Shown: positions 21,216-38,292 of the stretch, one piece after another
Layout: each line of letters opens with the position of its first letter
Position numbering within the stretch: the stretch's first letter is position 1
Virus record (IMG/VR): IMGVR_UViG_3300025120_000172
Location: 1-39,249 of that record
DNA from: a virus
Reading direction: 5' to 3' (one strand)
Length of the DNA stretch: 39,249 nt
The notes under the pieces: generated by a model
Databases searched by the model: none
The model's input: only the letters and a program-made list of their open reading frames with translations
Told to the model about the DNA's origin: nothing
Translations under genes and position numbers: made by a program

Positions 21216-21244
21216 TTTACTTTGACGGAATTGCTATATATTAT
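21216..21244 (+). promoter_or_regulatory. Early promoter family, copy 1
   Basis: CTTTACTTT with TTTACT (21216-21221), 17-base spacer, TATTAT (21239-21244). It lies 29 bases upstream of the 21274 start, whose leader ends AGAAAGGAGAAAAATG. Member of an eight-copy set sharing the -35 context and spacing. Confidence 0.6.
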
Positions 21245-21273
21245 TTATTACTTAGAAATAAGAAAGGAGAAAA

Positions 21274-21594
21274 ATGACAGTATATGTTATACAAGAAGTA
21301 ACGGGGCGCAATATCGCATCTGCTAGGCAGTACGGTGATTTTGAGGTACTTTTACCTTCTAACACTAATATAATGCTAAGCTCAGGTCCTTCAGTAAGAA
21401 GGATGAAAAGGATTCTTCAAGACTTTAAGGAAGAAGACTACTTATTATTAATTGGTGATCCCGCAGCTATTGGCGTAGCGTGTTCGATTGCTGCATTGTT
21501 TAATCGAGGTCGATATAATATCCTTAAATGGGATAGACAGGAAGGTATGTATTATCCTGTATTTATAGACCTCAACCAGAAAGGAGAAATATGA
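21274..21594 (+). CDS. Hypothetical early protein
   Basis: 106 residues with a strong ribosome binding site (AAAGGAG). It reads as an alternating alpha/beta fold: MTVYVIQE, DFEVLLPSNTNIMLS, a helix with VRRMKRILQDF, DYLLLIGDPAAIGVACSIAA and a final strand region. The GDPAAIG loop is conserved-looking, but no enzyme motif can be named. It is the first gene of the + strand early/replication region, directly behind a family promoter, and its stop overlaps the next start by 4 bases. Confidence 0.6.
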   Translation: MTVYVIQEVTGRNIASARQYGDFEVLLPSNTNIMLSSGPSVRRMKRILQDFKEEDYLLLIGDPAAIGVACSIAALFNRGRYNILKWDRQEGMYYPVFIDLNQKGEI

Positions 21595-22169
21595 TAAATA
21601 AAAACCCTACTTTTGAAGAACTTATTGGAAGCGAAGATGTAGAATCTTGGCACAATGAGATCAACGAAGGAGAACTTTCATTAGTTTCGGCTTTAGCCAA
21701 TAAACAAGTTCAACTAGCTCAGGAATTATCCGCGTTAGAAGAAGGAGTTAAGGCTAAAAAAGAAGAGTTTCGATTGACTTCGGAGCAAGAGTTACCAGAG
21801 GCTATGCAAGCCGCTGGATTAACTGAGTTAGTACTTAGTTCAGGTGAGAAAATCACCATAACTGAGTTCTATAATGCTCATATATCGAAGGCAAATCAAG
21901 ACACAGCGTACAACTGGCTTATAGAGAACGGTTACGCGGGCTTAATTAAGAACGAAGTTCTACTTAAGTTCGGACGTGATGAAGATATAATTGTTAAAGA
22001 AACAGTTTTAGCTTTAAAATCACGTGGTTTGTCACCAGACGTACGACAAAGCATTCATCCCAGTACATTAAAAGCTTTTGTAAAAGAGCAATTAACATCA
22101 GGGAAGGATATTCCATCAGAACCTTTTGGAGTCTATATAGGCTCTAAAGCTATTATTAAGAAGGACTAA
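21591..22169 (+). CDS. Conserved phage early protein with N-terminal coiled coil
   Basis: 192 residues. Residues about 28-65 form a coiled coil; the second half has a mixed fold with LTELVLSSGEKITITEFYNA, ENGYAGLIKNEVLLKFGRDE and SIHPSTLKAFVKEQLTSGKD, a pattern familiar from phage proteins that sit beside single-strand-binding or recombination genes. No catalytic motif. It overlaps the previous gene by 4 bases (ATGA) and is followed 4 bases later by the SSB candidate, so it probably works in replication or recombination; the exact role is unknown. Confidence 0.55.
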   Translation: MINKNPTFEELIGSEDVESWHNEINEGELSLVSALANKQVQLAQELSALEEGVKAKKEEFRLTSEQELPEAMQAAGLTELVLSSGEKITITEFYNAHISKANQDTAYNWLIENGYAGLIKNEVLLKFGRDEDIIVKETVLALKSRGLSPDVRQSIHPSTLKAFVKEQLTSGKDIPSEPFGVYIGSKAIIKKD

Positions 22170-22173
22170 TATT

Positions 22174-22959
22174 ATGGCAGAAAATAAAAATAAACTGGCT
22201 GAAAAGAAAGAAACAGCTATCGCTACTTATGATGATGATTTATTATCGGGTGGCACAGGACTTGAAGAAACTACATCAGAGGATTTCGCAATCCCCTTTA
22301 TTAGAATTCTTCAGCAAATGTCTCCACAGCTTAACAAACAAGACGGGCGTTATTCTGAGGAGGCACAAGCAGGAATGCTTGTTAACACGGTAAGCAATGA
22401 AGTCTATGACGGAGACACAGGTGTTAGGATAGTTCCATGCGCTTACGTTAAAAAGTATATCGAGTGGGTTCCTCGTGAGAAAGGTGGAGGGTTAGTAGAC
22501 GCGTCACATGACGTATCTATTTTAAAATCTTGTACTAAAAATCCCGAGACCCGTAGACTGTATTTGGATAATGGTAATGAGATTGTAGAGACCGCACAGT
22601 TTTTTGTGTTAGTCCTGGATCCTCAACCACAACAAGCAGTTATAGCCTTTAGTTCTACACAACTAGGAGCTTCACGAAAGTGGCTCACTATGCTTAGAAT
22701 GGCTAGAGTAAATACGAGCCAAGGAACTTCGGTTTCTGCTCCAATATTTGCCTATAACTATACTTTAGGTACTTTAACTCAGTCAAATGACAAAGGTACT
22801 TGGCATGGTTATACAGTGAACCAAGAGGGTCCTACTGATGTTGAAACAGCACAACTCGCAAAAGAGTTTATGACTGCGGCAAGATCAGGAGACGTAGAAG
22901 TAAAAGAAGAGCAGCAACGTGACGGTAATACACAATCGTCTGGAGATGCTCCGTTTTAA
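22174..22959 (+). CDS. Single-stranded DNA-binding protein candidate
   Basis: 261 residues. The central region (about 35-220) is beta rich, with DFAIPFIRILQQMSPQ, GVRIVPCAYVKKYIEWVPRE, AQFFVLVLDP and SRKWLTMLRMAR, typical of a conserved phage family placed next to primase genes. The C-terminus is acidic and polar and ends SGDAPF, closely like the DDxPF tip by which bacterial SSB and T7 gp2.5-type proteins dock partner enzymes. The fold cannot be proved by eye, so the call rests on the tail, the size and its place just before the primase. It would coat ssDNA at the fork. Confidence 0.6.
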   Translation: MAENKNKLAEKKETAIATYDDDLLSGGTGLEETTSEDFAIPFIRILQQMSPQLNKQDGRYSEEAQAGMLVNTVSNEVYDGDTGVRIVPCAYVKKYIEWVPREKGGGLVDASHDVSILKSCTKNPETRRLYLDNGNEIVETAQFFVLVLDPQPQQAVIAFSSTQLGASRKWLTMLRMARVNTSQGTSVSAPIFAYNYTLGTLTQSNDKGTWHGYTVNQEGPTDVETAQLAKEFMTAARSGDVEVKEEQQRDGNTQSSGDAPF

Positions 22960-22976
22960 TTTAAAGGAGATATCAT

Positions 22977-26708: not shown

Positions 26709-26715
26709 AAACTTC

Positions 26716-26745
26716 TTTACTTTGTATATAAAAGTAAAGGATAAT
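26716..26745 (+). promoter_or_regulatory. Early promoter family, copy 2, with perfect inverted repeat
   Basis: TTTACT (26716-26721), 18-base spacer, GATAAT (26740-26745). Here CTTTACTTT (26715-26723) is followed by its reverse complement AAAGTAAAG (26731-26739) after 7 bases, so the promoter is also a perfect 9-base inverted repeat and might be an operator. The leader ends AGAAAGGAGAACTATG. Confidence 0.55.
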
Positions 26746-26773
26746 AATAGGGGTAAAATTAGAAAGGAGAACT

Positions 26774-27277
26774 ATGAACATATTTTATTTTGACGAGGAT
26801 CCTTACGTCGCGGCTCAGGCTCAACCTGACAAGCTGCTCGTAAAGATGCCTTTAGAAACTGCACAGATGTTGTGCACCGCCCACCGCGTAACGGGTTGTG
26901 AGGATTACGCAGATGAACACAACTTATATAAGACTGCTTATATGAATCATCCATGTACTATTTGGGCTCGAGAAAACCAAGCTAACTATTCATGGCTTTA
27001 CGCACATTTTCTTGCGTTAGGTAATGAGTACACGTATCGCTACGATAAAGTCCACGCTAGTTTAGAAAAACTAGCCGATGCTTTATTAATGCTACCAACT
27101 GGCTTGTGGGACACGAGCAAACAAATGTCAGATATACCTCAGTGTATGCCTGATGAATATAAAAACGACGACCCGATAACCGCGTACCGTGATTACTGTA
27201 TAAATGAAAAGTATTACGCTAAGTGGGAAAAGGGTAGAAATAAACCAACTTGGTGGGAGGAACCATGTCATCAATAA
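26774..27277 (+). CDS. Conserved phage protein of unknown function
   Basis: 167 residues with an excellent ribosome binding site (AAAGGAG, 6 bases). It starts MNIFYFDEDPYVAAQAQPDK, followed by LLVKMPLETAQMLCTAHR, a signature I recall from a widespread phage family without known function. Many Trp, Tyr and His residues (NHPCTIWAREN, NYSWLYAHFLAL, PQCMPDEYK) suggest an enzyme or ligand-binding helical protein. It opens the operon with the methyltransferase and hmdU-kinase-like genes, and overlaps the methyltransferase start by 13 bases, so a role in nucleotide or base metabolism is possible but unproven. Confidence 0.6.
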   Translation: MNIFYFDEDPYVAAQAQPDKLLVKMPLETAQMLCTAHRVTGCEDYADEHNLYKTAYMNHPCTIWARENQANYSWLYAHFLALGNEYTYRYDKVHASLEKLADALLMLPTGLWDTSKQMSDIPQCMPDEYKNDDPITAYRDYCINEKYYAKWEKGRNKPTWWEEPCHQ

Positions 27278-28182
27278 GAAAGAAATTAAAAGTTAATGAA
27301 AACGATAGTAAAAATACTCGTATGGATATTGCTAGCGCAGGTGTTTTGGGAAACTGGAGACCTGATGAGCTCACCCATATCAGTAGATTCGATAAAATTG
27401 CCTCTCTCTGTGTAGAAGAAGCTAAAAACTTAGAAAGACCCATAACTGCTATGGAAGTAGGTTGTGGAGAACTCTGGGCGCTTAGAGTTTTGTATAAATC
27501 ATACACGGTTAAGAAGTCTGATATTATTGAATCATATCAAGGTTTTGATATAGACCCCGCGTGTGCTATAGAAAACCCATTCTGGTCTAATGGAGGAGAG
27601 CCTATTGAAAACTCAACGTGGCTTAAGAACTTTAATGCCACTATTACTATACAAGATGTAACCGTTCCTAGGAAAAATAAAGAAGGAGATCAATATGGCA
27701 ACATGTTCGATATACCTTCTGAAACTATAGATTTTTTCTGGACGACAGAAGTTATTGAACACATGGAAAGAGAGTTTGTTCCTATTTGGTTAAAAGATGC
27801 GGCAAGATGCTTAAGACCTGATGGTCTAGCGTATGTTTCTACACCTAACCACGACGGTTCTAACGATAAACTACCTGAAGACCATATTTATGAATGGGGT
27901 TTTGACGAGCTTAAAGAAGAACTAGAAAAACATTTTCATATTGAATCTGTGGTAGGAACTTTTATGCAAATGCCTAATCTAAAGAAAGCACAAAAACAAT
28001 ATGCAGAACCCACTGTAGATGGATTACCTGTTAATTCTTTTAACAAGTTTCCTCAAGCGTGGACAACTGAACAGTTACTAATGCTTAGAGAAAGATTTGG
28101 TAAACAGTTTTTAAGAATGGTAGTAGCTACTCCCTATCCTGAATATGCAAATAATTGTGCGTGGGTTTTAAGAAAAAAATAA
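27265..28182 (+). CDS. Class I SAM-dependent methyltransferase
   Basis: 305 residues from the ATG at 27265, chosen because GGAGG lies 4 bases upstream. Motif I is MEVGCGELWAL (residues 63-73), acidic residues of motif II are in QGFDIDP, and the post-I region WTTEVIEHM and DAARCLRPDGLAYVSTPNHD is typical of the Methyltransf_11/23 type, which act on small molecules, lipids or nucleotides rather than having a classical DNA-methylase NPPY motif. It overlaps the next gene, a hmdU DNA kinase helical-domain protein, by one base. That link suggests it methylates a modified base or its precursor; this is inference. Confidence 0.8.
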   Translation: MSSIRKKLKVNENDSKNTRMDIASAGVLGNWRPDELTHISRFDKIASLCVEEAKNLERPITAMEVGCGELWALRVLYKSYTVKKSDIIESYQGFDIDPACAIENPFWSNGGEPIENSTWLKNFNATITIQDVTVPRKNKEGDQYGNMFDIPSETIDFFWTTEVIEHMEREFVPIWLKDAARCLRPDGLAYVSTPNHDGSNDKLPEDHIYEWGFDELKEELEKHFHIESVVGTFMQMPNLKKAQKQYAEPTVDGLPVNSFNKFPQAWTTEQLLMLRERFGKQFLRMVVATPYPEYANNCAWVLRKK

Positions 28183-29066
28183 TGACAGAATTTCTACCAA
28201 AAGAATTAGATACTTATATCTATTGGATTCACGAAAGAGAAGTGATACGAATAGCTAAAGAAGATTTAAATCTAAGCCCTCCTTGGACAGATGACAAAGT
28301 TTTACAAAAGTATAAATTTTGTCAAGTCTTCCGAGAAGATGACAGAACTACTCGTTGGTTCTGTGAACACATCAGAGAGCCTCTTAAAGACTCTACTGAC
28401 GTTTTTATGGCTACGGTTATTTTCAGGTGGTTTAATTACATAGAGTCGGGAAAGACATTAATTAAGCACGATCTTCTTTGTAATTGGGATAGAAAGAAAG
28501 CTATTGAAGAAATATCTAAACAAAATAAATGGGTAACGGGGGCTTATATAATCAAAACTCCAAACCGAATGAATAAAGTAACAGGAGTTGCTGAATGTAT
28601 TTCTCACATGTGGAAAGATAAAAATTATTTAATTGATAAAATGAATTCTACACATAGTTTAGAAGACATTTGGAATGTTTTACGAGATTATCCATACATG
28701 GGACCGTTTATGGCATATGAAGTAGTTACTGATTTAAGACACACATACATAGGATATGGATGCGATGATATCCTGACTTGGGCTAATCCTGGACCAGGAG
28801 CCATGCGAGGGCTCAATAGGCTTACGGGCAGAGAACTTGGGTTTTGTAAACGTAGTCATCCTTGGAACGAAGAAATGCAAGAATTATTAAAAATAGCCCA
28901 CGAAAGGCTAAACAACAATATTATCGATCTTGATAAATTTGAGATGCGAGAAGTAGAAGGAGGACTCTGCGAGTTCGATAAGTACTCGAGGACTGTAAAG
29001 AAAGAGGGTAAAACACGCAGTATCTATAAATATAATAAAGATCTTCCATTGGTTGAAGGTCTATAA
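28182..29066 (+). CDS. 5-hmdU DNA kinase helical-domain protein (alpha-glutamyl/putrescinyl-thymine pyrophosphorylase family)
   Basis: 294 residues, starting on the last base of the methyltransferase stop. Diagnostic blocks: FCQVFREDDRTTRWF (about 46-60), DVFMATVIFRWFNYIESGKT (about 71-90), GAYIIKTP, MAYEVVTDLRHT (177-188) and WANPGPGAMRGLNRLTGRE (200-218). These are the hallmark of the family linked to hypermodified thymidine in phages such as ViI, M6 and SP10, where a 5-hydroxymethyl-dU in DNA is activated for further elaboration. I see no Walker A P-loop in this protein, so the fused kinase domain of some homologues is missing. Cytoplasmic; expected to act on phage DNA. Confident on the family, not on the reaction. 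Confidence 0.78.
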   Translation: MTEFLPKELDTYIYWIHEREVIRIAKEDLNLSPPWTDDKVLQKYKFCQVFREDDRTTRWFCEHIREPLKDSTDVFMATVIFRWFNYIESGKTLIKHDLLCNWDRKKAIEEISKQNKWVTGAYIIKTPNRMNKVTGVAECISHMWKDKNYLIDKMNSTHSLEDIWNVLRDYPYMGPFMAYEVVTDLRHTYIGYGCDDILTWANPGPGAMRGLNRLTGRELGFCKRSHPWNEEMQELLKIAHERLNNNIIDLDKFEMREVEGGLCEFDKYSRTVKKEGKTRSIYKYNKDLPLVEGL

Positions 29067-29077
29067 AGGAGAAAGAA

Positions 29078-29299
29078 ATGAGCGAATATAAAGATCAAGC
29101 GATTGAGCTATTAGAAGAATACGGAGACACAGTAGATGTTTATTACACACAGTTTTTGGAAGTAGCGTTTTTTCTTAAAGTTCCAGCTAACTATGGATTA
29201 GTTATTGGATTCTTAAAAAGGAAACTACCTCAGCTGACTGAAGAACAACTAGGTTTTTTAGTTGGAGAAATTACCTCAGCCTATCATGATTCTGTATGA
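29078..29299 (+). CDS. Small helical protein in the base-modification cassette
   Basis: 73 residues with an AAAGGAG ribosome binding site 6 bases upstream. The sequence is helix rich (KDQAIELLEEYGDTVDV; LTEEQLGFLVGEITSAYH) with a hydrophobic centre LEVAFFLKVPANYGLVIGFL. No family recognised. It lies 11 bases after the hmdU-kinase-like gene and overlaps the thymidylate synthase-like start by 4 bases, so it is made with them and may be an accessory factor. Confidence 0.55.
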   Translation: MSEYKDQAIELLEEYGDTVDVYYTQFLEVAFFLKVPANYGLVIGFLKRKLPQLTEEQLGFLVGEITSAYHDSV

Positions 29300-30336
29300 A
29301 AGTTATTAACGCGAGAAACGTGAATGATGCTCTTTTGTTGGGTTTAGATTTATTTCAAGACCCGAGAAACTTTAGGGAACAAGAAAGTAGAAACGGAACT
29401 ACTTATGAAGCTTTAGAACCTGTAACCACCGTTTATGAAAAACCTTGGGAACGAGTACTGTTACTTAAACTGAGAGACGCTAATCCTTTCTTCCATTTTA
29501 TAGAGGGACTTTGGATGCTGGCAGGTCGTAATGACCTAAAACCTTTAACTCATTTTGTTAAAAGCATGGAAAATTTTTCAGATGATGGCGAGACTTTATG
29601 GGGTGCTTATGGTCATAGATGGAAAAGTTATTTTCATAAAGATCAAATTAAATTAGTTATAGAAATGTTAAAAGCTAATCCTGATGATAGAAGGTGCGTT
29701 TTACAAATGTGGGACGCTAATAAAGATTTAAACAAACAAGGTAAAGACGTACCCTGCAACACTAATATTTATTTTAAAATACGAGATAAACAATTACACA
29801 TGACAGTATGCAATCGTTCTAACGACATGCTTTGGGGAGCTTACGGAGCTAATGCAGTACATATGTCTATGCTACAGGAGTATATAGCTAGTCATCTTAG
29901 AGTAACAATAGGAACGTATCGACAAGTAAGCGATAGTTTTCATGTGTATCACAATGAAGTTTGGGAAAGAGTAAAAGGAATAGAAATAAATCCTTGGACT
30001 TATTCAGAAATAAAAAACCCTTACGATCTTTTAGAAGGGACAGTTTACACTAATTTTATGACTCGCCCAGAAGTTTTTGATTGGGAACTAGATAGATTCT
30101 TTAGTATGGATTTTTACGAACCTTATGAAGATGCTTGGGAAAATCCTGGTTTCAAGGATATTGCTATACCTATGTTAAAAACATTTAACGCACATAAAGA
30201 AAGAGATTATGCGAAAGCATATAGAGAAGTAATGAAAATACTTCCAAACGATTGGATGACAGCTTGTTTCGATTGGATAAAGAAACGAGATGCGTCTTGG
30301 ACACTTAATAATAACGGAGGAAACAATGGCGAATAA
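29296..30336 (+). CDS. Thymidylate synthase family; dUMP 5-hydroxymethylase candidate
   Basis: 346 residues. Catalytic Cys154 in DVPCNTNIYFKI, phosphate-binding Arg174-Ser175 in CNRSNDMLWGAYGANAV, and YRQVSDSFHVYHNE near the third conserved block all fit the thymidylate synthase/deoxynucleotide hydroxymethylase fold. Asn186 sits where ThyA has the Asn that prefers uracil, while dCMP hydroxymethylases have Asp, so the substrate is probably dUMP. It uses methylene-tetrahydrofolate to make dTMP or, if it is a hydroxymethylase, 5-hydroxymethyl-dUMP. The canonical ThyA C-terminus (PVAI/V) is not seen; the end is Asn/Gly rich. The neighbour at 28182 favours the hydroxymethyl version. Starts by a 4-base overlap with the small gene before it. 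Confidence 0.8.
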   Translation: MKVINARNVNDALLLGLDLFQDPRNFREQESRNGTTYEALEPVTTVYEKPWERVLLLKLRDANPFFHFIEGLWMLAGRNDLKPLTHFVKSMENFSDDGETLWGAYGHRWKSYFHKDQIKLVIEMLKANPDDRRCVLQMWDANKDLNKQGKDVPCNTNIYFKIRDKQLHMTVCNRSNDMLWGAYGANAVHMSMLQEYIASHLRVTIGTYRQVSDSFHVYHNEVWERVKGIEINPWTYSEIKNPYDLLEGTVYTNFMTRPEVFDWELDRFFSMDFYEPYEDAWENPGFKDIAIPMLKTFNAHKERDYAKAYREVMKILPNDWMTACFDWIKKRDASWTLNNNGGNNGE

Positions 30337-30694: not shown

Positions 30695-31017
30695 CTGACG
30701 CGCAGGGAAGAAGTCCTTTCGAACAAGCTAAAGAAATTTTGTTACAAAATAAAACAAAGGAAGATTTACTTTCTGCTCAAATGAAAGAAGCTACTGTCAA
30801 ACTTGAAAAGTTTGAAAAGATTTCTGTTGTTGAAGCAGATTTGCCAAAACCTAAACGTGCTAGAACTAAAAAAGGCATATATAAGGCAGACGACAAATCA
30901 ACTCCTAATGTTAATGAAGCGTGGGAAGGTGGAAAAGCACCTGTTAAATCTAAGGTAAAAAAAGCTAAACCTACAAAGAAAACAGTAAAAATAAAAAGGG
31001 TAACAAAAAATAAATAA
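30646..31017 (+). CDS. Hypothetical basic protein
   Basis: 123 residues with GGAGG 7 bases before the ATG. The first half is helical (MGILDWFRRKTTKPRIADAQ), the last 35 residues are Lys rich (SKVKKAKPTKKTVKIKRVTK), like a nonspecific DNA-binding tail. It overlaps the upstream gene by 49 bases and the polymerase start by one base, so it may be a polymerase-associated factor. No family known. Confidence 0.5.
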   Translation: MGILDWFRRKTTKPRIADAQGRSPFEQAKEILLQNKTKEDLLSAQMKEATVKLEKFEKISVVEADLPKPKRARTKKGIYKADDKSTPNVNEAWEGGKAPVKSKVKKAKPTKKTVKIKRVTKNK

Positions 31018-32873
31018 TGCAATCCCCTATATTTGCTCCTGAAAGTGATTGGGTTATCCCCGATATTTTCCCTAAGTTTGCAGAAAACGAACGTATTGCT
31101 GTAGACTTAGAAACGTATGACCCCCACCTATTGACCTCTGGTCCAGGGTGGGCTACAAACAGAGGTCACATGGTTGGAGTTGGTGTCGCTACTAAAGATT
31201 GGAAGGGTTACTTTCCAATTCGCCATGAAGGCGGTGGCAACCTTGATGAGGCAGTAGTCTTGCGATGGTTACAGAATACTCTCTCTTCTACTAAAAGAGA
31301 GGTTATTTTTCATAATGCACTTTACGATGTTGGATGGTTGAGAAGAGAAGGAGTAGACGTAAAGGGTAAAATCCTCGACACTATGTTTGCTGCTCCACTC
31401 ATAGATGAGAACCGATACTCTTATTCTCTCGACGCACTCGGACAAACGTATTGTGGAGAAAAGAAAGACGAGTCGCTGTTGCAAGATGCTGCTTTAGCTT
31501 GGGGCATTAATCCTAAAGCGGAGATGTATAAACTACATTCTAAATACGTTGGGTTTTATGGTGAACAAGATGCAGCACTTACACTTAAACTCTATGAAAA
31601 ATTAAAAATAGAATTACAAGAACAAAACTTAGAACCAATCTACGATATAGAGTGTAGATTAATTCCTTTACTTTTAGAAATGAGGTGGAGGGGAGTTAGG
31701 GTAGATGAACAAAAAGCTGAAGAAGTCAGTAAAAAGTTATCTCTACAAGAACAAAAGTTACACATAGAAATAAAGAGAAAATACGGAGAAGATGTAAACC
31801 TATGGGCGAATGCGTCTTTACAAAAAGTTTTTGATAAAAACAATCTACCGTACCCTAGAACAGAAAAAGGCATGGCTAGTTTTCAAAGACAATGGCTAGA
31901 GGGTCATGAACACGAACTACCCCGAATGATTGTAAAAGCCAGGAAATTGAATAAAGCACGAACTACGTTTATAGATAAAATGATTTCAGAGCACGCAGTT
32001 AATGGAAGAATACATGCAGAAGCTCATCCCTTAAGAAATGATTCAGGAGGAACGGTTAGTGGTCGTTTTAGTTACAGTAACCCTAACTTACAACAAGTTC
32101 CTGCAAGAGATCCTGAACTAGGCACAATGATTAGATCGCTGTTTATACCTGAAGAAGGATGTAGGTGGGGTCTATTCGATTATTCTCAACAAGAGCCTCG
32201 ACTTACGGTACACTACGCAAATAAGATGGGTTTAATAGGGGCTAAGGAAGCCGTAACCGCGTATAGGGATAAGAACGCAGACTTCCATCAGATAGTTGCG
32301 GACATGGCTAATATACCCCGTAAACAAGCTAAAAATATAAACTTGGGACTAAGCTATGGAATGGGAAAACAAAAATTAATTAAAGAACTTGGTTTAGGTG
32401 ATTTAGAGGCTCAAGCTCTACTTACTAAATACCATGAAAAAGTACCCTTCATTAGAGGTCTACAAGATCAGTGCTCTAGAGTAGCACTTGACAGAGGGTA
32501 CATTAGAACTCTTGCAGGAAGACGATGTCATTTCGATTTATGGGAACATAAATATGATAAGACTATGCCTTTACCATTAGAAGAAGCAAGAGAAAAATAC
32601 GGAGATGTTTTAAAAAGGTCTTATACATATAAAGCCCTTAATAGACTGATTCAGGGCTCAGCGGCGGACATGACTAAGTTAGCCATGCTGGGTTTGTGGG
32701 AAGAAGGAATAGTTCCCCACGTCCAAGTCCACGATGAAGTGGACATATCTATTGAAGATGACGAACAAGCAGCGAAAGTTTCACGAATTATGGAAAACTG
32801 CGTCGATCTTGCTGTTCCTCTTACTGTAGATACAGAACTCGGTACTAGTTGGGGCGAAACGGAGGAAATTTAA
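31017..32873 (+). CDS. polA: Family A DNA polymerase with 3'-5' exonuclease
   Basis: 618 residues. Exonuclease domain: AVDLETYDP (Asp-x-Glu, Exo I), IFHNALYDVGWL (Exo II) and YVGFYGEQDA (Exo III). Polymerase domain: motif A WGLFDYSQQEPRLT (Asp388), motif B RKQAKNINLGLSYGM (Lys439, Leu443, Tyr447) and motif C VQVHDEVDIS (Asp573), so both activities look intact; there is no 5' nuclease domain, as in T7 gp5. Leu443 takes the place of E. coli Pol I Phe762, a site that influences speed and sugar selection. It is the phage replicative polymerase. The start overlaps the previous stop by one base, as does its stop with the next gene. Confidence 0.95.
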   Translation: MQSPIFAPESDWVIPDIFPKFAENERIAVDLETYDPHLLTSGPGWATNRGHMVGVGVATKDWKGYFPIRHEGGGNLDEAVVLRWLQNTLSSTKREVIFHNALYDVGWLRREGVDVKGKILDTMFAAPLIDENRYSYSLDALGQTYCGEKKDESLLQDAALAWGINPKAEMYKLHSKYVGFYGEQDAALTLKLYEKLKIELQEQNLEPIYDIECRLIPLLLEMRWRGVRVDEQKAEEVSKKLSLQEQKLHIEIKRKYGEDVNLWANASLQKVFDKNNLPYPRTEKGMASFQRQWLEGHEHELPRMIVKARKLNKARTTFIDKMISEHAVNGRIHAEAHPLRNDSGGTVSGRFSYSNPNLQQVPARDPELGTMIRSLFIPEEGCRWGLFDYSQQEPRLTVHYANKMGLIGAKEAVTAYRDKNADFHQIVADMANIPRKQAKNINLGLSYGMGKQKLIKELGLGDLEAQALLTKYHEKVPFIRGLQDQCSRVALDRGYIRTLAGRRCHFDLWEHKYDKTMPLPLEEAREKYGDVLKRSYTYKALNRLIQGSAADMTKLAMLGLWEEGIVPHVQVHDEVDISIEDDEQAAKVSRIMENCVDLAVPLTVDTELGTSWGETEEI

Positions 32874-33214
32874 TGCGAGGTATATCTAAAATAAAAGCTG
32901 ACCAAATGGCGGCGCGTTACAGAATCATGTACGAAAAATGGAATAAAGAATCAGTAACCTTACAAGAACTTGGTAAAGGTTATGGGATAACTAAACAACG
33001 TACATGGCAAATTATTACTCGATGCAAATTAGGTGATGGTGATTATTATTACGGAGTAAAGTTAGCCAGAGATAAATGGTCTGAACTCTACTCTACTTAT
33101 AAAGACAAATCTCAAACACGTTTAGCGTTTAACGAATGGTTAGAGGGTAATGAAATTAAAGTGATTGGAAACAACAAAACAACAGCACCCCACACAGGAT
33201 GGGATTTGTTGTAA
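32873..33214 (+). CDS. Helix-turn-helix protein, candidate DNA-binding regulator
   Basis: 113 residues from the ATG at 32873 (GGAGG 6 bases upstream, TAATG overlap with polA). Residues about 28-50, VTLQELGKGYGITKQRTWQI, have the shape of a sigma-region-4-like or LuxR-like helix-turn-helix, with basic flanks (RCKLGDGDYYY; KDKSQTR). No dimerisation or ligand domain is seen. It could be a transcription regulator of the phage or a small polymerase accessory factor; a link to the CTTTACTTT promoters is conceivable but only inferred. Confidence 0.5.
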   Translation: MRGISKIKADQMAARYRIMYEKWNKESVTLQELGKGYGITKQRTWQIITRCKLGDGDYYYGVKLARDKWSELYSTYKDKSQTRLAFNEWLEGNEIKVIGNNKTTAPHTGWDLL

Positions 33215-33222
33215 TAAGGTGC

Positions 33223-33251
33223 TTTACTTTCTCCTTATTGGTATTTAAAGT
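33223..33251 (+). promoter_or_regulatory. Early promoter family, copy 3 (possible leaderless transcript)
   Basis: TTTACT (33223-33228) within GCTTTACTTTC, 17-base spacer, TAAAGT (33246-33251). The next start codon begins at 33260, only 9 bases after the -10, exactly where transcription would begin. No ribosome binding site at useful distance is present. Confidence 0.6.
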
Positions 33252-33259
33252 ATAGGGGT

Positions 33260-33790
33260 ATGGGTAATAAGATAAAAAAAAGAATTTGTGTGTTTTGCGA
33301 AGACGAGTTTGAAGGAACATCTCAATATTGTAGTAAAGAATGTCAAAACAACCAAAATTATGCAAATAACAAAAATCCTGTAGGACATGTAGCTCGTAAA
33401 GAGGGAGTACTCGGACAGTACGATTACCAAGAAGAACAACATTTATCTCCAGAAGTACAATGGGTACTAGATAACGACGAGGGAGACACTCCTAGGATAA
33501 CTGAAGATCAGCGCTATATTCGTAGATGTTTACACGAATTAAGTTCTGCTACTTATTCAGATGGAACAAAATTAATTGAAACTACTGGGTATAAAGAGAG
33601 AAAACGAGATTCACTTAGAGTTGGGTTTTTTCATATAGCAGGTGAAAACATAAAAAGAGAAAAATCTTTTAATAATAAGACTGGTCCCATAAATGATGGT
33701 GTAAAGTACAAACAATACACAACTTTCGACGAAAAAATAGAAAAACTAAAAAATTCTCAAAAGAACTATACTGTATTCGACGATGACTAA
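33260..33790 (+). CDS. Zinc-finger protein of unknown function
   Basis: 176 residues. Near the N-terminus ICVFCEDEF and SQYCSKEC give four Cys (CxxC...CxxxC) as in the zinc knuckles of HNH-associated and MYM-like phage proteins; no HNH nuclease motif follows. The remainder is charged, with DDEGDTPRITEDQRYIRRCL and a basic region KYKQYTTFDEKIEKLKNS. The start is fixed by the finger at residue 10, which leaves only the ATG at 33260, and implies a leaderless mRNA from the promoter just upstream. It overlaps the VRR-NUC gene by 8 bases. Confidence 0.65.
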   Translation: MGNKIKKRICVFCEDEFEGTSQYCSKECQNNQNYANNKNPVGHVARKEGVLGQYDYQEEQHLSPEVQWVLDNDEGDTPRITEDQRYIRRCLHELSSATYSDGTKLIETTGYKERKRDSLRVGFFHIAGENIKREKSFNNKTGPINDGVKYKQYTTFDEKIEKLKNSQKNYTVFDDD

Positions 33791-34172
33791 AGAAAAAAAC
33801 TTTTGGTTACTCCTTAGAGAAAACATTAAAGATATTCATTGGCAACGTATTGAAACAGGTATGACAGGTGCGGGTATACCTGATGTTAACGGTTGTGCTA
33901 AAGGCAAAGAGTTTTGGGTCGAGCTAAAAGAAATTCACTCGGGCAACTCACTCACTCTACGACCTATGCAAGTTTCCTGGCTCGCGAAACGTGCAATGCA
34001 TGGAGGGCAAGTTTTTGTTCTTGCTCGGAAAAATAATCAAATAAAGCTCTACCATATTGACGGATTAGAACGGGCTCACGAGCTTGTAAAAAATGGTTAC
34101 AAATCTGACGCTTTACTTACTCTCGATATTCCTTACGAGTGGAGTGCTCTTTACAGTGCTTTACTTTCGTAA
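33783..34172 (+). CDS. VRR-NUC domain endonuclease
   Basis: 129 residues. Catalytic pattern: GMTGAGIPDVNGCAKG (Asp34) and EFWVELKEI (Glu47-x-Lys49), then RPMQVSWLAKRAMHGGQVFV, typical of stand-alone viral VRR-NUC domains of the PD-(D/E)XK group. Such enzymes are structure-specific, related in role to Holliday-junction resolvases, and could cut recombination intermediates or concatemers before packaging. The gene's end, ...SALLS, is encoded by TCTTTACAGTGCTTTACTTTCG, which contains the -35 of the next promoter. Confidence 0.85.
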   Translation: MTKEKNFWLLLRENIKDIHWQRIETGMTGAGIPDVNGCAKGKEFWVELKEIHSGNSLTLRPMQVSWLAKRAMHGGQVFVLARKNNQIKLYHIDGLERAHELVKNGYKSDALLTLDIPYEWSALYSALLS

Positions 34173-34188
34173 CGCTGTACTATTTAAT
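34160..34188 (+). promoter_or_regulatory. Early promoter family, copy 4, embedded in the nuclease 3' end
   Basis: TTTACT (34160-34165), 17-base spacer, TTTAAT (34183-34188). The -35 lies inside the last codons of the VRR-NUC gene. A small hairpin GTAGC...GCTAC (34195-34211, 7-base loop) follows in the leader, then AGAAAGGAG before the 34247 start. Confidence 0.6.
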
Positions 34189-34194
34189 ATACGG

Positions 34195-34211
34195 GTAGCC
34201 TAAAAAGCTAC
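34195..34211 (+). promoter_or_regulatory. Leader hairpin
   Basis: GTAGC (34195-34199), loop CTAAAAA, GCTAC (34207-34211): perfect five-base stem in the 5' leader of the DUF932 gene, beginning near the predicted transcript start. It could protect the 5' end from RNases. Confidence 0.4.
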
Positions 34212-34246
34212 GGTGATTAAACAGTGCAATAAGAAAGGAGAAATAT

Positions 34247-35281
34247 ATGGCACATAATGTAGAAACAATGGCATGGACAGGTGATAAACCTTGGCACGGA
34301 TTGGGTGTTGAAGTATCAAATGACCTAACGCCATTACAAATGCAGGAAGCAGCACAGTTAGACTGGACAGTTAGCAAACGTCCTAGTTATACTTTAGATG
34401 CGCCTGAATGGGGCGAAGATGTGGGGTTAATCCAAGCGGAAAGTACCTTCCACATTGTTCGTGATTCTGATAACCGAATACTTAGCCATTGCGGTAGAGA
34501 CTACGTCCCTATTCAAAATGAAGATGTATTTAAGTTCTTTAAACGCTTTACTGAAGCAGGACACATGAAAATGGAAACTGCAGGTAGCTTAAAAGACGGC
34601 GGAGAAATTTGGGGTTTAGCCAAAATATCTGAAGACTTTGAGTTAGCGGGCGAAGACCTTATTAAAGGTTATCTTTTAATAAACCAACCGCATATTGTTG
34701 GTCGCTCACTTACTATTAAGCTGACGCCTATTAGAGTTGTATGTAACAATACACTTACTATGGCATTACAGCATGGTGGTACAGCGTCTTTCCGTATGCC
34801 CCACGTTAGAGAGTTCGGTGATGATGTTATGAAGACTGCTGAAGAAGCTTTAGGCTTATCTGCAGAGCGTATGACAGCGTTTAAAGAAGCAGCAACTTTG
34901 TTATCTAAGAAGAAAACAAAGCACTCTAACTTCCTCGATTTTGTAGGAGAGTTGTATCAACCTGATATGATCTCTGCCTATAGAAAAGAAGCCGAGTTAA
35001 AGGCTCAAGGTAAAAAGATAGGCGAACAAGCCCCTCTTATTGAGCAATTTAATACTTACCCTAGATTAGTTGTTGAAGCTCTTGAGCGTCAGCCAGGAGC
35101 GAATTTAGCTTCATCTAAGGGTACTTGGTGGGGTGCATTAAACGCAGTAACCTATGTTGAGGATCACTTACGTGAGTCTCAGACCCCAGGAAACAGCCTT
35201 CACAGTGCGTGGTTTGGAGCGGGAGCGAATCGTAAAGCGAAAGCCCTCGACCTAGCTATTAAATACGCGAAGGTGGCTTAA
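34247..35281 (+). CDS. DUF932 / TIGR03299-type phage/plasmid-like protein
   Basis: 344 residues with a near-ideal ribosome binding site (AAAGGAG, 7 bases). The start MAHNVETMAWTGDKPWHGLG is the signature of the family, followed by a middle with STFHIVRDSDNRIL, IWGLAKISEDF and TPIRVVCNNTLTMAL, and the end with WGALNAVTYVEDH. DUF932 proteins occur on plasmids and phages and are often highly expressed; their role is unknown. It has its own early promoter and starts a run of small genes ending near 36064, each sharing a one-base stop/start overlap. Confidence 0.88.
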   Translation: MAHNVETMAWTGDKPWHGLGVEVSNDLTPLQMQEAAQLDWTVSKRPSYTLDAPEWGEDVGLIQAESTFHIVRDSDNRILSHCGRDYVPIQNEDVFKFFKRFTEAGHMKMETAGSLKDGGEIWGLAKISEDFELAGEDLIKGYLLINQPHIVGRSLTIKLTPIRVVCNNTLTMALQHGGTASFRMPHVREFGDDVMKTAEEALGLSAERMTAFKEAATLLSKKKTKHSNFLDFVGELYQPDMISAYRKEAELKAQGKKIGEQAPLIEQFNTYPRLVVEALERQPGANLASSKGTWWGALNAVTYVEDHLRESQTPGNSLHSAWFGAGANRKAKALDLAIKYAKVA

Positions 35282-35520
35282 TGGCAGATAACCCTAAGAA
35301 TTACTCCCTCGACGCTGAAGTTGCGGGAGTTATTTGGGCAGCATTGTTTGAGGCAGGAGATGACGAGTTAGCTCGTCTACTGTCTGATACGATGATAGCC
35401 CAAGGTTGTCAGGAATTGGCGGGAGTTAGCGATAGCTCCCTCATCCTGATGTTTTGGAAAAACCACTTGGTAGAGAACGGCTATATAGCCGTCAGACCAG
35501 GAGATAAGGAGTTAAATTAA
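35281..35520 (+). CDS. Hypothetical small protein
   Basis: 79 residues; stop/start overlap of one base with both neighbours (TAATG). Acidic, helical, with AEVAGVIWAALFEAGDDELA and LILMFWKNHLVENGYIAVRP near the end. It lacks a signal peptide and no family is recognised. Confidence 0.55.
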   Translation: MADNPKNYSLDAEVAGVIWAALFEAGDDELARLLSDTMIAQGCQELAGVSDSSLILMFWKNHLVENGYIAVRPGDKELN

Positions 35521-35843
35521 TGGCTAGTGCAAATGACTTAGGTCAATATACAGAAAATAAACCCGATGCGTTTTTAGATGAAGACACGGGTATTCAAATA
35601 GATATAGGAGTACCTCTACCTGAAGATACAAGATCAGGTGCGAGATATCCTTTTGCTAAAATGGAGGTAGGTGACTCTATCTTTGTTTTACTTAAGGAAG
35701 GTGACAACGGTAATCGATTGAAAAATCGATTATCCCAAGCTACTCGGACTTACGGGAAAAAACAAGACCCCCAGCAACATTACATTATACGGTATCGTTT
35801 AGAGAACGAAGTATCGGGTGTGAGGATCTGGAGAAAAGACTGA
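35520..35843 (+). CDS. Small conserved phage protein with YPFAKM..GDSIFV motif
   Basis: 107 residues. The block ARYPFAKMEVGDSIFVLL followed by a helix with NRLKNRLSQATRTYGKKQ and strands HYIIRYRLE and GVRIWRKD looks like a small mixed alpha/beta domain found in many phages (DUF7303-like from memory, uncertain). This type often binds nucleic acid, but no proof is available. Overlaps both neighbours by one base. Confidence 0.6.
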   Translation: MASANDLGQYTENKPDAFLDEDTGIQIDIGVPLPEDTRSGARYPFAKMEVGDSIFVLLKEGDNGNRLKNRLSQATRTYGKKQDPQQHYIIRYRLENEVSGVRIWRKD

Positions 35844-36064
35844 TGTCTGCCTTGTATAAAGAAAAAGTAGTTATGGAGCTGCGCGAAAGTATTAAAGAAC
35901 TACGCGAAGCTTTAGATTATTTAGCGTGTCAAGTTGACGAAGATATCCCTGCAGAAAATGGAACTCATCATCTCTGGGAAGCTGTCCGTAATGCGCACAA
36001 TCTTGTTTGTGGTCCAACGTCAGTTTATGTGACCCAGGATCCTGAGTTTGATAGGCGCTCGTAG
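35843..36064 (+). CDS. Hypothetical small protein
   Basis: 73 residues, mostly helical (MELRESIKELREALDYLACQ; HHLWEAVRNAHNLV). One-base overlap with the previous gene; it is the last gene of the DUF932 operon and is followed at once by the next early promoter. No family known. Confidence 0.5.
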   Translation: MSALYKEKVVMELRESIKELREALDYLACQVDEDIPAENGTHHLWEAVRNAHNLVCGPTSVYVTQDPEFDRRS

Positions 36065-36070
36065 GGCTGC

Positions 36071-36099
36071 TTTACTTTCGTAATACTCGTAGGTAAAGT
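36071..36099 (+). promoter_or_regulatory. Early promoter family, copy 5
   Basis: TTTACT (36071-36076), 17-base spacer, TAAAGT (36094-36099), followed by AGTTAGTATG as in copies 6 and 8. CTTTAC and GTAAAG form an imperfect inverted repeat around the spacer. It drives the 36180 gene. Confidence 0.65.
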
Positions 36100-36108
36100 A
36101 GTTAGTAT

Positions 36109-36149
36109 GTTCTACCGCAAGGCGGAACTTTATTGCACCGAAAGGTGTG
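36109..36149 (+). promoter_or_regulatory. Double-hairpin 5' leader
   Basis: Hairpin A: GTT + CCGC (36109-36118) pairs with GCGG + AAC (36122-36128) with a CTA bulge. Hairpin B: CACC (36136-36139), tetraloop GAAA, GGTG (36144-36147). Both lie between promoter and ribosome binding site, so they would sit in the first 50 bases of the mRNA. Confidence 0.5.
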
Positions 36150-36179
36150 TGTGTTTAGAAAGAAGAAAGGAGAATAGAT

Positions 36180-36584
36180 ATGGCACAAGCATTATCTGCT
36201 GCTAGTGTGAAAACACCAAGTAGAAAAATCTCTGCTAAAAAAGCACCAGTCAAAGCGAAAGCTACGAACGGTTCTGGCAAAATAGGAACAACTGTTCCTA
36301 AGCCGACCACGACTGGAAAAGGAGCTACTCGTAAACAATTTATGTATACGGGCAAGTACCCTAAGTCTGAGGAAATAGATAAAACTACTCCTCAGATCGT
36401 TGCTTTAGTCGACACAGCTGAGTCTGCAGAAAAAGGAGAGATTGATCCCTCCCGTTTCACAGCTCAAGAGTTAGTCGCGTTAGCAGTGAAGAAAGGCTTT
36501 TTATCAACGAGACAAGATCCTCTTAGAATCTTTAGGTTCTATAAGAAACGTCTTATTGATGAAGGTTATTTCGTCGAGTTGTAA
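36180..36584 (+). CDS. Hypothetical protein with basic N-terminal tail
   Basis: 134 residues with AAAGGAG 8 bases before the ATG. Residues 1-55 are Ala/Lys/Thr/Pro rich and disordered, like a histone-type tail; residues 56-134 form a compact domain (RKQFMYTGKYPKSEEIDK; FTAQELVALAVKKGFLSTRQ; DPLRIFRFYKKRLIDEGYFV) that may be a winged helix. The sequence suggests DNA binding. It has its own promoter and structured leader, so it is probably well expressed early. Family unknown. Confidence 0.6.
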   Translation: MAQALSAASVKTPSRKISAKKAPVKAKATNGSGKIGTTVPKPTTTGKGATRKQFMYTGKYPKSEEIDKTTPQIVALVDTAESAEKGEIDPSRFTAQELVALAVKKGFLSTRQDPLRIFRFYKKRLIDEGYFVEL

Positions 36585-36600
36585 AACTATCGGAGTGTTG

Positions 36601-36661
36601 CCCCTACTCTGTAACTCAAAGGGGTGTATGATGTTGTACTGAGATAAAACAATCTCAGTAC
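36601..36661 (+). promoter_or_regulatory. Two inverted repeats before the 36692 gene
   Basis: CCCCT (36601-36605) with AGGGG (36620-36624), then a perfect ten-base stem GTACTGAGAT (36636-36645), loop AAAACA, ATCTCAGTAC (36652-36661). No U tract follows, so it is not a clear intrinsic terminator; it may be an operator, an attenuator or a 5' stabiliser. No promoter of the common family is seen in this 107-base gap. Confidence 0.55.
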
Positions 36662-36691
36662 GATATTGTTACTTAACTAAAAAGGAGAATC

Positions 36692-36862
36692 ATGCAAATA
36701 CAAATAACAAAAAACGACGGAACGGTCGTTACTACAAACATAGAATCTATTGCAAGACATTTAACAACAGGCATTCAAGGGCAATCGAAAATTTCGGGAG
36801 ATGTTCTTTTTAATTTTATATATGATGAAATAGAAAAACACATAAATAATAAAAATGGATGA
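36692..36862 (+). CDS. Small hypothetical protein
   Basis: 56 residues, AAAGGAG 6 bases upstream of the ATG. Begins MQIQITKNDGTVVTTNIESI and continues as helix to the end. Overlaps the next gene by 8 bases. Not recognised; the good ribosome binding site and strong hairpin upstream support a real gene. Confidence 0.6.
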   Translation: MQIQITKNDGTVVTTNIESIARHLTTGIQGQSKISGDVLFNFIYDEIEKHINNKNG

Positions 36863-37148
36863 AGAAGTAAATATATTAAATATCGGGGAACTTCCTGATA
36901 TGGATAAAGAAGTTTCTTTAAAAATAGACTTCACGACTTTAATCATAGTTTGTACAGCAATGACTATGTACAGCGATTATATCCTAAATATGATTGAAGA
37001 CGACACATTACCCACACCAATAGGGGAAACTATGTTACAAAACGTAGATAAAGTAATTGAAAAGTTTCATCATGTCATGGCTATGGAAGGAAACGAGATA
37101 TATAAAGCACTTTATGAAAACACTGTAAAAGAGGGGACAATACAATGA
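36855..37148 (+). CDS. Small hypothetical protein
   Basis: 97 residues, acidic (pattern MDEEVNILNIGELPDMDKEV) with a central hydrophobic stretch FTTLIIVCTAMTMYSDYIL and a helical tail. The ribosome binding site is not evident; translation may be coupled to the preceding gene, which it overlaps by 8 bases. No family known. Confidence 0.5.
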   Translation: MDEEVNILNIGELPDMDKEVSLKIDFTTLIIVCTAMTMYSDYILNMIEDDTLPTPIGETMLQNVDKVIEKFHHVMAMEGNEIYKALYENTVKEGTIQ

Positions 37149-37264
37149 GTGATGAAAAAATGAGAGAATTATACGCAGTTTGGAAAACTACACGACCAGA
37201 AGAAGAGAATTATGTAGTTGTTCGTAAAAGTCGTTTTACTGCTTTACTTTCGCGTAATTCGTAG
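37145..37264 (+). CDS. Micro-protein ending in a promoter
   Basis: 39 residues beginning MSDEKMRELYAVWKTTRPEE, overlapping the previous gene by 4 bases (ATGA). The last residues TALLSRNS are coded by the -35 region of the next early promoter, a situation parallel to the VRR-NUC gene (SALLS). Real by position, but too short to classify. Confidence 0.45.
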   Translation: MSDEKMRELYAVWKTTRPEEENYVVVRKSRFTALLSRNS

Positions 37265-37271
37265 GTAAAGT
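37243..37271 (+). promoter_or_regulatory. Early promoter family, copy 6
   Basis: TTTACT (37243-37248), 17-base spacer, TAAAGT (37266-37271), then ATTTAGTACG. The -35 overlaps the 3' end of the 37145 gene. The transcript would contain about 185 leader bases before the 37466 start, unusually long for this genome. Confidence 0.65.
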
Positions 37272-37284
37272 ATTTAGTACGTTA

Positions 37285-37432
37285 ATAAACTTTTTTCTTA
37301 GGAAAGTTTATGACTAGAGTGTAGACAGGGGATGTGCCTTTGTAAAATCCAGAAACTTAATAGGTGAAGTAGGTGAAGTAGGTGAAGGCGGAATTAGGGA
37401 TAGGCAGGAACCATACCCGAACTATCTACACT
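37285..37432 (+). ncRNA. Candidate structured RNA or structured leader
   Basis: A perfect nine-base hairpin ATAAACTTT/AAAGTTTAT (37285-37293 with 37303-37311) is followed by nested pairings: AGTGTAGA/TCTACACT (37318-37325 with 37425-37432), GGG/CCC (37328-37330 with 37416-37418), TGCCT/AGGCA (37335-37339 with 37402-37406) and ATCC/GGAT (37347-37350 with 37398-37401). Inside are three AGGTGAAGT-type repeats (37362-37388). There is no open frame over this stretch. It is not a tRNA: no T-loop. It lies just behind a promoter and before the zinc-ribbon gene at 37466. Confidence 0.4.
37362..37388 (+). repeat. Three tandem 9-base repeats
   Basis: AGGTGAAGT, AGGTGAAGT, AGGTGAAGG in direct succession, in the interior of the candidate structured RNA. 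AGGTGA resembles a ribosome binding site, but no start codon follows at a fitting distance. Confidence 0.85.
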
Positions 37433-37465
37433 TGATTTATTATTATAATTAGAAAGGAGAATGAT

Positions 37466-37612
37466 ATGAAATGTGTTTTATGTGGAGAAACTAAAGAGGA
37501 GTTCGGGCATAACCCTGAGCCCATTGCAGAAGGTAAATGTTGTACGGACTGTAACGCAGGAAAAGTTATACCTGCCCGAATGAAAGAATTAACTGATTTT
37601 TACAAGTCTTAA
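37466..37612 (+). CDS. Small zinc-ribbon protein (CxxC...CCxxC)
   Basis: 48 residues starting MKCVLCGETKEEFGHNPEPI, then GKCCTDCNAGKVIPAR. CxxC at 3-6 and CCxxC at about 25-29 form a zinc-binding ribbon; this small protein is common in phage genomes. AAAGGAG lies 6 bases upstream of the ATG. Function unknown. The long leader with inverted repeats precedes it. Confidence 0.75.
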   Translation: MKCVLCGETKEEFGHNPEPIAEGKCCTDCNAGKVIPARMKELTDFYKS

Positions 37613-37626
37613 AGATTTTAAATAAA

Positions 37627-37745
37627 TTGACTCCAAATCACATTCTTTGTATAGCAGAAGGAATGATTAACACAAAGTTGAAGAGGGGGGAGTCAGCCCT
37701 AGCGGTTATTTCATCCGCGTCTCGGGTAGTTAAACGCTCTTCAAC
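37627..37745 (+). ncRNA. Candidate structured RNA with interleaved inverted repeats
   Basis: Within the 199-base gap 37613-37811: TTGACTCC/GGAGTCA (37627-37634 with 37689-37695), CATTC/GAATG (37641-37645 with 37661-37665), CTTTGT/ACAAAG, GTTGAAGAG/CTCTTCAAC (37677-37685 with 37737-37745, perfect nine bases) and GCGG/CCGC inside CCC/GGG. Several pairings cross, so they form pseudoknots or exclude each other. The nine-base stem bounds a 69-base tRNA-sized element, but it has no T-loop. An open frame (see findings) also covers it. Confidence 0.35.
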
Positions 37746-37750
37746 ACTGC

Positions 37751-37779
37751 TTTATTTTCGGTTTGTTGCCCTTTAAACT
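37751..37779 (+). promoter_or_regulatory. Early promoter family, copy 7
   Basis: TTTATT (37751-37756) in GCTTTATTTTCG, 17-base spacer, TAAACT (37774-37779), immediately behind the structured element. The leader ends AGAAAGGAGAAAGATATG at the 37812 gene. Confidence 0.55.
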
Positions 37780-37811
37780 ATATAGGTAACTAAAAAAGAA
37801 AGGAGAAAGAT

Positions 37812-38057
37812 ATGGGAAAAATTTACGGAAGTATGGATGTTCAAAATAGAGTAGATCATGTACAAGAACTTATTGAAAAAGATAAAGCTCATCGTGAGAA
37901 ATATCCTTCATTTAAATTGACAGGTACTGTTAGTGACCCTGTTGACACTTCATACAAACAAGAAATTAGCAAACAATACACTGTTGCTGTCGCGTACAAT
38001 AAAGGAGGGTATCAAGTAATACCCAAAAGTCAGATAAAAGATATCGGGAGAAAATAA
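37812..38057 (+). CDS. Small hypothetical protein
   Basis: 81 residues, AAAGGAG 8 bases upstream. Begins MGKIYGSMDVQNRVDHVQEL and ends with a beta-like KQYTVAVAYNKGGYQVIPKS. The next gene starts on its last base. Not recognised; it has its own promoter. Confidence 0.6.
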   Translation: MGKIYGSMDVQNRVDHVQELIEKDKAHREKYPSFKLTGTVSDPVDTSYKQEISKQYTVAVAYNKGGYQVIPKSQIKDIGRK

Positions 38058-38257
38058 TGAATTCTAAAAAAGCTAAGAAAATAAGAAAAATGCTTAAAGA
38101 ACAAGGAGTAGATTGGAATGAATCAAAACCTGTTCAACAAGTAGTAAAAGACCATGAAGGTAACGAACAACGCTTACAACGTATATTCCAGGATCCGAAA
38201 GGCGGGCGAGCGTTGTACCAAGCTATGAAGTCTGTCGTAAAGTCACAAGGCTCGTAG
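38057..38257 (+). CDS. Small basic hypothetical protein
   Basis: 66 residues, Lys/Arg/Gln rich: MNSKKAKKIRKMLKEQGVDW, then a helical end GGRALYQAMKSVVKSQGS. TAATG overlap with the preceding gene. It resembles short phage proteins of unknown role; binding to nucleic acid is possible from charge. Confidence 0.55.
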   Translation: MNSKKAKKIRKMLKEQGVDWNESKPVQQVVKDHEGNEQRLQRIFQDPKGGRALYQAMKSVVKSQGS

Positions 38258-38263
38258 CAGTGC

Positions 38264-38292
38264 TTTACTTTGGCTATTTTGGAGAGTAAAGT
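38264..38292 (+). promoter_or_regulatory. Early promoter family, copy 8
   Basis: TTTACT (38264-38269), 17-base spacer, TAAAGT (38287-38292), then AGTTAGTATC, nearly the same downstream bases as copies 5 and 6. Leader ends AGAAAGGAGAAAGATATG at 38330. Confidence 0.65.

Follow-up and report, generated by a model that had tools for sequence, protein, structure and literature searches.

The virus record IMGVR_UViG_3300025120_000172, from an uncultured virus of ocean bacteria and analyzed here over its full length of 39,249 bases (the window), is classed as linear and has a guanine plus cytosine content of 37.4%. Its right half carries the replication genes, which encode Pam3 gp32-34-like proteins, a primase, a helicase, a phrog_624 DNA-binding protein and a methyltransferase, followed by a 5-hydroxymethyldeoxyuridine (5-hmdU) DNA kinase-type protein, a thymidylate synthase homolog, DNA polymerase A (31017–32873, plus strand), and HNH-like, resolvase-like and DUF932 proteins. 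Eight copies of a two-box promoter element, all on the plus strand, are placed among these genes, and directly behind the polymerase gene lies a gene for a small helix-turn-helix (HTH) protein (32873–33214, plus strand) that is the candidate reader of their −35 block.

Copy 1 (21216–21244, TTTACT-17-TATTAT) precedes the replication operon and its Pam3 gp32-like gene at 21274, with orthologous sites before the gp32 genes of related phages, and copy 2 (26716–26745, TTTACT-18-GATAAT), which also has orthologs in relatives, precedes the phrog_624 DNA-binding protein gene at 26774. Five copies begin with the block GCTTTACT and a 17-base spacer: copy 3 (33221–33251, −10 box TAAAGT) before an HNH-like gene at 33260, copy 4 (34158–34188, TTTAAT) before the DUF932 gene at 34247, copy 5 (36069–36099, TAAAGT followed by AGTTAGTA) before a gene at 36180, copy 6 (37241–37271, TAAAGT) upstream of a small open reading frame at 37467, and copy 8 (38262–38292, TAAAGT followed by AGTTAGTA) before a gene at 38330. 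Copy 7 (37749–37779), with the arrangement GCTTTATT-17-TAAACT, stands before a gene at 37812. A preliminary description of this DNA had reported eight TTTACT boxes (TTTATT at 37751), spacers of 17 bases (18 at 26716), the eight −10 boxes given above and a TTAGTA common to copies 5, 6 and 8 after the −10, and all of these were confirmed to the base. Two of its generalizations hold only in part. The extended −35 context is present as GCTTTACTTT or GCTTTATTTT in six of the eight copies but has CC or TC instead of GC in copies 1 and 2, and the copies lie directly before genes as a rule but copy 6 is ∼220 bases ahead of its gene. The exact 12-mer GCTTTACTTTCG has three occurrences (34158, 36069, and 37241).

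It is the two-box arrangement that constitutes the signal and not the −35 octamer, because the bare octamer TTTACTTT is not rare, occurring 14 times on the plus strand and several times within genes without a −10 box. The pattern GCTTTA[CT]TTT-15-T....T was found six times on the plus strand and never on the minus strand (mean of 0.00 in 100 dinucleotide shuffles), and TTTACTTT-15-TAAA.T four times in the window vs. 0.01 in dinucleotide shuffles. Two-box copies inside genes at a similar rate, which the preliminary description had named as grounds for abandoning the promoter reading, were not seen. The structural half of the window (1–20950) holds no two-box copy, and late genes must therefore use another signal. 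A blind expectation-maximization motif search, which was low-powered, recovered the motif in the window modestly above shuffles and returned nothing clear in HTVC023P, HTVC027P, MW574966, DSL-LC04 or G017.

The cassette, ttAGTGCTTTACTTTCG-17-TAnnnT, is shared by many uncultured marine phages, with hundreds of relatives keeping it, and stands in front of orthologous genes. Across 80 related loci (1.15 Mb) chosen by the small HTH protein and not by the motif, TGCTTT[AT][ACT]T-17-TA...T occurs 197 times in sense orientation, never in antisense, and once in the reversed control. An alignment independent of the motif, made from 41 DUF932 upstream regions picked by the gene alone, gave 1.7–2.0 bits per base over TGCTTTACTTTC, in agreement with the earlier claim of conservation beyond normal sigma70 needs. 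Information in the −10 box of the same alignment is concentrated at its ends (T−12, 2.0 bits; A−11, 1.3; interior, 0.5–0.7; T−7, 2.0), and among 161 sites seeded on the −35 box with a 17-base spacer T−12 is present in 80%, A−11 in 76% and T−7 in 81%. The −10 is often poor (TACCTT, TACGCT, TACCCT) while the 12-base −35 block is nearly invariant. An invariant upstream block paired with a weak −10 suggests that some factor is held at the upstream block with unusual strength.

Like sigma70 promoters, these sites have boxes ∼17 bp apart and conserved T−12, A−11, and T−7. Their −35 box is not TTGACA-like: TTTACT has T at −33 where TTGACA has G, and it deviates from TTGACA at both −33 and −30 while keeping C at −31. 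The design is a promoter of the sigma70 type in which the extended −35 block is near-invariant and the −10 is degenerate. That all copies follow one promoter design, as had been proposed, is strongly supported: the two boxes keep a fixed spacing and a single orientation, the sites precede genes and are deeply conserved, and a stem-loop lies close to where transcription is expected to begin. We have very little doubt that the eight sites are real promoters.

Within the window, stem-loops were identified in the leaders after copy 4 (34195–34211, GTAGC-N7-GCTAC, with stem sequences that co-vary in relatives), copy 5 (36109–36128, GTTCTACCGCAAGGCGGAAC) and copy 6 (37287–37309, AAACTTT-N9-AAAGTTT), all on the plus strand; copies 1 and 2 are without such a structure. 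A hairpin of at least 5 bp within 40 nt after the −10 is present at 82 of 128 non-redundant sites (64%), compared with 43% in shuffled leaders and 45% in segments upstream. Most stems begin 7–12 nt past the −10, at about +1 to +6; this agrees with the predicted transcription start, 6–8 bases after the −10, and lends it indirect support. Paired stem changes in the DUF932 leaders (GTAGC/GCTAC, GTAGT/ACTAC, and GTAAGC/GCTTAC) were read as co-variation by eye; RNAalifold found no consensus in these leaders, as the MAFFT alignment had left the stems out of register. Many of the transcripts would begin with such a structure, which probably stabilizes them or protects their 5′ end. Copies 5, 6, and 8 are 67–72% alike, a hint only of shuffling between genes. 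At copy 3 (33223–33260) a transcript from the expected start would have a leader of ∼2 bases ahead of the HNH-like gene's ATG, and there is no ribosome-binding site, so that either a leaderless mRNA or a later start is expected. A similar cassette in a related locus (L010, at 12058) retains a full leader.

The HTH gene encodes 113 amino acids, its ATG overlaps the DNA polymerase stop codon, and its HTH motif, TLxELGxxYxITKQRxWQI, resembles sigma70 region 4.2. The same operon slot is kept in nearly all relatives, in forms down to ∼70 amino acids, with invariant residues in the recognition helix. When the family profile was searched against all PDB sequences, almost every one of the 60 matches listed was a sigma factor (best E 0.001), and 25 of 29 family members match Pfam Sigma70_r4 (best E 2.2e-8). 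The AlphaFold model is confident in the HTH (predicted local distance difference test score about 90), and Foldseek ranks Taq sigmaA region 4 on −35 DNA first, at a weak E of 2.5; since all Foldseek matches have E ≥ 2.5, structure alone proves nothing. A structure search of BFVD gave nothing at E ≤ 0.001, and no homolog was found in INPHARED. Region 2 is absent from the protein, which consists of a sigma4-like HTH only, and Sigma70_r2 has no match in the window or in the relatives G002, G005, and G006. Aligned with Escherichia coli sigma70, the family has Lys or Arg at R584, Gln at E585 in 29 of 29 members, and retains Q589. In sigma70, E585 contacts −33 and R584 contacts −31, and the substitution E585Q relaxes specificity at −33 (PMC2613000). 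The phage −35 fits this pattern, having bases other than those of TTGACA at −33 and −30 but the usual C at −31; this agreement is the strongest mechanistic hint available, and still a hint.

The protein and the motif occur together. HTVC023P-type polymerase loci (n = 83, 0.74 Mb) have the protein in none and the motif at background level (one sense, four antisense, and one control site). An intermediate group has the protein in 27 of 31 loci with 11 sense and no antisense sites. The relative DSL-LC04 has neither, and its orthologous promoters look sigma70-like with G at −33: the gp32 gene is preceded by TTGCAA-17-TACACT and DUF932 by TTGCGC-18-TATAAT plus a hairpin, and a TTGACA-17-TACATT stands elsewhere (boxes assigned by eye). 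The DSL-LC04 record (L024) also has, between helicase and primase (20405–20662), an 85-aa protein annotated as “RNA polymerase sigma-G factor”; PF04545 and PF04542 gave no match in this record.

From these observations we propose that the eight sites would serve the host multi-subunit RNA polymerase, with host sigma region 2 reading the degenerate −10 (T−12, A−11, and T−7) and the −35 block (TGCTTTACTTTCG, T at −33) being read by the phage-encoded, free-standing sigma region 4-like protein from 32873–33214. Made from the replication operon, this protein would replace or supplement sigma region 4 and so switch the host polymerase to delayed-early or middle phage genes. We infer its binding to this −35, its contact with RNA polymerase and the timing of its action. 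The special factor raised by the preliminary description has a candidate in this predicted reader, which is found alongside the motif; the other suggestion made there, a host sigma with extended −35 contact, may hold instead. Copies 1 and 2, which in the window are without the TGC extension, stand ahead of the operon that holds the HTH gene, and copies 3–8, with TGC, are downstream of that gene. A cascade is plausible in which host-read promoters would act first and protein-dependent ones later; if the sigma4-like protein is required, most copies would be delayed-early or middle promoters and not the early ones of the preliminary description. We consider a phage protein as reader of these promoters the best single explanation, ahead of host sigma alone, and put it at roughly an even chance.

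Several observations weigh against this reader. The window protein itself scores 16.4–16.8 bits with Sigma70_r4, below the Pfam cut-off of 24.1, and its structural matches are weak, the best VIA-align rows being Mu C (Z 4.6) and Taq sigmaA region 4 (Z 4.4). Position 588 varies (W/H/S/C) among phages that share one motif, and similar HTHs occur in Mor/C activators and in HNH endonucleases. Two loci without the protein after the polymerase, L359 and L362, have one motif-like site each. More generally, protein and motif follow the same phylogenetic split, so that their co-occurrence could reflect shared ancestry and does not prove dependence. The sites might be ordinary strong early promoters used by the unmodified host holoenzyme, TTTACT and its extension reflecting a preference of host sigma or alpha and the HTH protein doing something else. 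T4 early promoters, also to be counted against the phage reader, have GTTTAC at −36 to −31 (T at −33) and extra conserved bases and require no special factor (PMC1524935, PMC2988021); the fixed 17-base spacing and conserved T−12, A−11, and T−7 fit plain sigma70 use, and the PF00940 and Sigma70_r2 searches found no other polymerase. This account fits less well with such poor −10s beside a nearly invariant −35 block, given that T4 early promoters are described as good matches to the sigma70 elements (PMC2988021), and with the G at −33 in orthologous places of the protein-less DSL-LC04; we regard it as unlikely, though the most serious competitor. The same confounding with phylogeny would be expected if the HTH protein were what is left of an HNH homing endonuclease and had no role at these promoters, tracking the motif since both are ancestral to the phage group. 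Streptomyces and Staphylococcus phages do have related HTHs in their HNH endonucleases (E 4e-3 to 1e-1), but a constant operon slot, a minimal form of 70 amino acids with invariant recognition-helix residues and a list of PDB matches made up almost wholly of sigma factors would be odd for such a remnant, and we think this origin improbable.

A further reading turns on symmetry within the promoter. In a subset of sites AGTAAAG(T) at the −10 region is the reverse complement of the CTTTACT in the −35 block, and copy 2 contains a perfect inverted repeat, CTTTACTTT-N7-AAAGTAAAG (26715–26739), that is conserved in its orthologs in many relatives. A Mor/C-like or other dimeric regulator, either activator or repressor, could thus sit on CTTTACT...AGTAAAG over the promoter, with TAAAGT dictated in part by the operator. 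TAAAGT is the commonest −10 and is preceded by AG in 18 of 28 non-redundant sites; where the −10 is a different one, AG precedes it in 13 of 100 (Fisher p 2e-7). Of the 29 HTH proteins, 26 match Pfam Mor at E up to 1 (best E 4.4e-6), the window protein scoring 17.3 bits against a cut-off of 24.9, and VIA-align places Mu C first. However, the second arm is fully matched in only 18 of the 128 sites, the gap between the arms is 11 bases in copy 2 vs. 15 in the others, and the Mor element is 16 bp long and centered at −43.5 (PMC4390567), while the block here spans about −41 to −26. A dimeric regulator is in our judgment the least probable of these accounts, and operators alone were rejected, the second half-site being missing in most copies; the inverted repeat is a possible second binding site or operator. 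Promoters for a T7-like polymerase were likewise rejected: PF00940 had no match in the window or in five relatives of 44–84 kb, records that may be incomplete, under conditions in which the T7 positive control matched, and the two-box geometry fits a sigma holoenzyme.

Among known systems, T4-type early promoters share with the sites a −35 of GTTTAC with T at −33, a spacing near 17, the use of host RNA polymerase, and many copies before small early genes (PMC1524935). The sites described here differ in conservation that spans the whole TGCTTTACTTTCG block, in a much weaker −10, in belonging to an unrelated phage, and in the presence of a gene for a sigma4-like protein. In T4 middle transcription (sigma appropriation by MotA/AsiA) a phage DNA-binding protein takes the −35 region and sigma70 keeps the −10, and the MotA box TGCTTtA matches the first seven bases of this −35 block (PMC2988021). 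True MotA boxes, however, lie 12 ± 1 bp upstream of the −10 (PMC2988021), whereas the matching heptamer TGCTTTA lies 19 bp from it, with the −35 at normal spacing, and because of this difference the system is not a member of T4 sigma appropriation. The C-terminal domain of MotA is a double wing, unlike the sigma4-type HTH found here; neither MotA nor AsiA was named in PHROGs scans of the main window genes, which included no profile search aimed at them. The promoter early stem-loops (PeSLs) of T4-like phages are likewise promoter and stem-loop cassettes between small early genes, as described second-hand in PMC4503421, but the stem-loops here lie just after the start site and are not terminators. 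SigO-RsoA of Bacillus subtilis has its sigma4 domain as a separate protein (PMC8103513), but SigO pairs with a dedicated sigma2 protein, and no Sigma70_r2 match was found in the phage records searched. Mu Mor/C are small phage HTH activators of sigma70 promoters with weak Pfam and structural resemblance to the protein described here; Mor differs in binding as a dimer upstream of the −35, at the center given above. The system would work like T4 sigma appropriation without belonging to it and is best placed among phage-directed sigma70-type promoters, as a variant of its own.

Extended to the relatives, the proposal describes a widespread group of uncultured marine phages with a split-sigma strategy, in which a stand-alone sigma region 4 analog of 70–130 amino acids with an E585Q-type recognition helix would read a private −35 (TGCTTTACTTTCG) and host region 2 would act on weak −10s; this we offer tentatively, at somewhat less than even chances. 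If it is true, the phage exchanges only the −35-reading domain of the host holoenzyme, and this replacement of one sigma domain would be among the smallest known devices that redirect bacterial RNA polymerase. The pairing of E585Q with T at −33 would also let the sigma-DNA recognition code be tested in a natural case, and the proposal would account for how transcription is controlled in a large group of uncultured marine phages, where the records searched showed neither an RNA polymerase nor a full sigma. Even with host sigma alone, the motif is a usable promoter annotation for many phage contigs.

DNA polymerase A, used to place the phage and find its relatives, is 47–56% identical to those of phage 023Pt_psg01, the Pelagibacter phages HTVC023P and HTVC027P, and DSL-LC04; none of the deposited phage records is near-identical to the window at the DNA level. 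A single genome scan gave one distant match, the phage-like contig L253 (DKQR01000054.1), which is binned in a Marinimicrobia metagenome-assembled genome and has relatives of gp33, gp34, primase, and helicase, as well as of the polymerase (60%) and the HTH protein (35%). This binning is a weak hint of host range, too weak for naming a host. The 5-hmdU DNA kinase-type protein (28182–29066; PF18723, E 9e-44) and the thymidylate synthase-family protein (29296–30336; phrog_5131) suggest hypermodified thymine in the phage DNA; if so, modified bases might be what is recognized in the T-rich −35 block.

Further elements lie around copies 6 and 7. The 190-base leader after copy 6 (37274–37466) folds strongly (−35.5 kcal/mol) and contains three GGTGAAGTA-like repeats; in its 3′ part it shares 86% identity with the related locus L004. 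A search of 36580–37830 against Rfam gave nothing above the gathering score. A canonical-looking promoter, TTGACT-17-TATAGC, is located at 37627–37655, and a long stem, GTTGAAGAG...CTCTTCAAC, closes the region that follows it (37676–37747), immediately ahead of copy 7. A similar closing stem made of other bases is present in L004, and the region is possibly a small RNA or a terminator.

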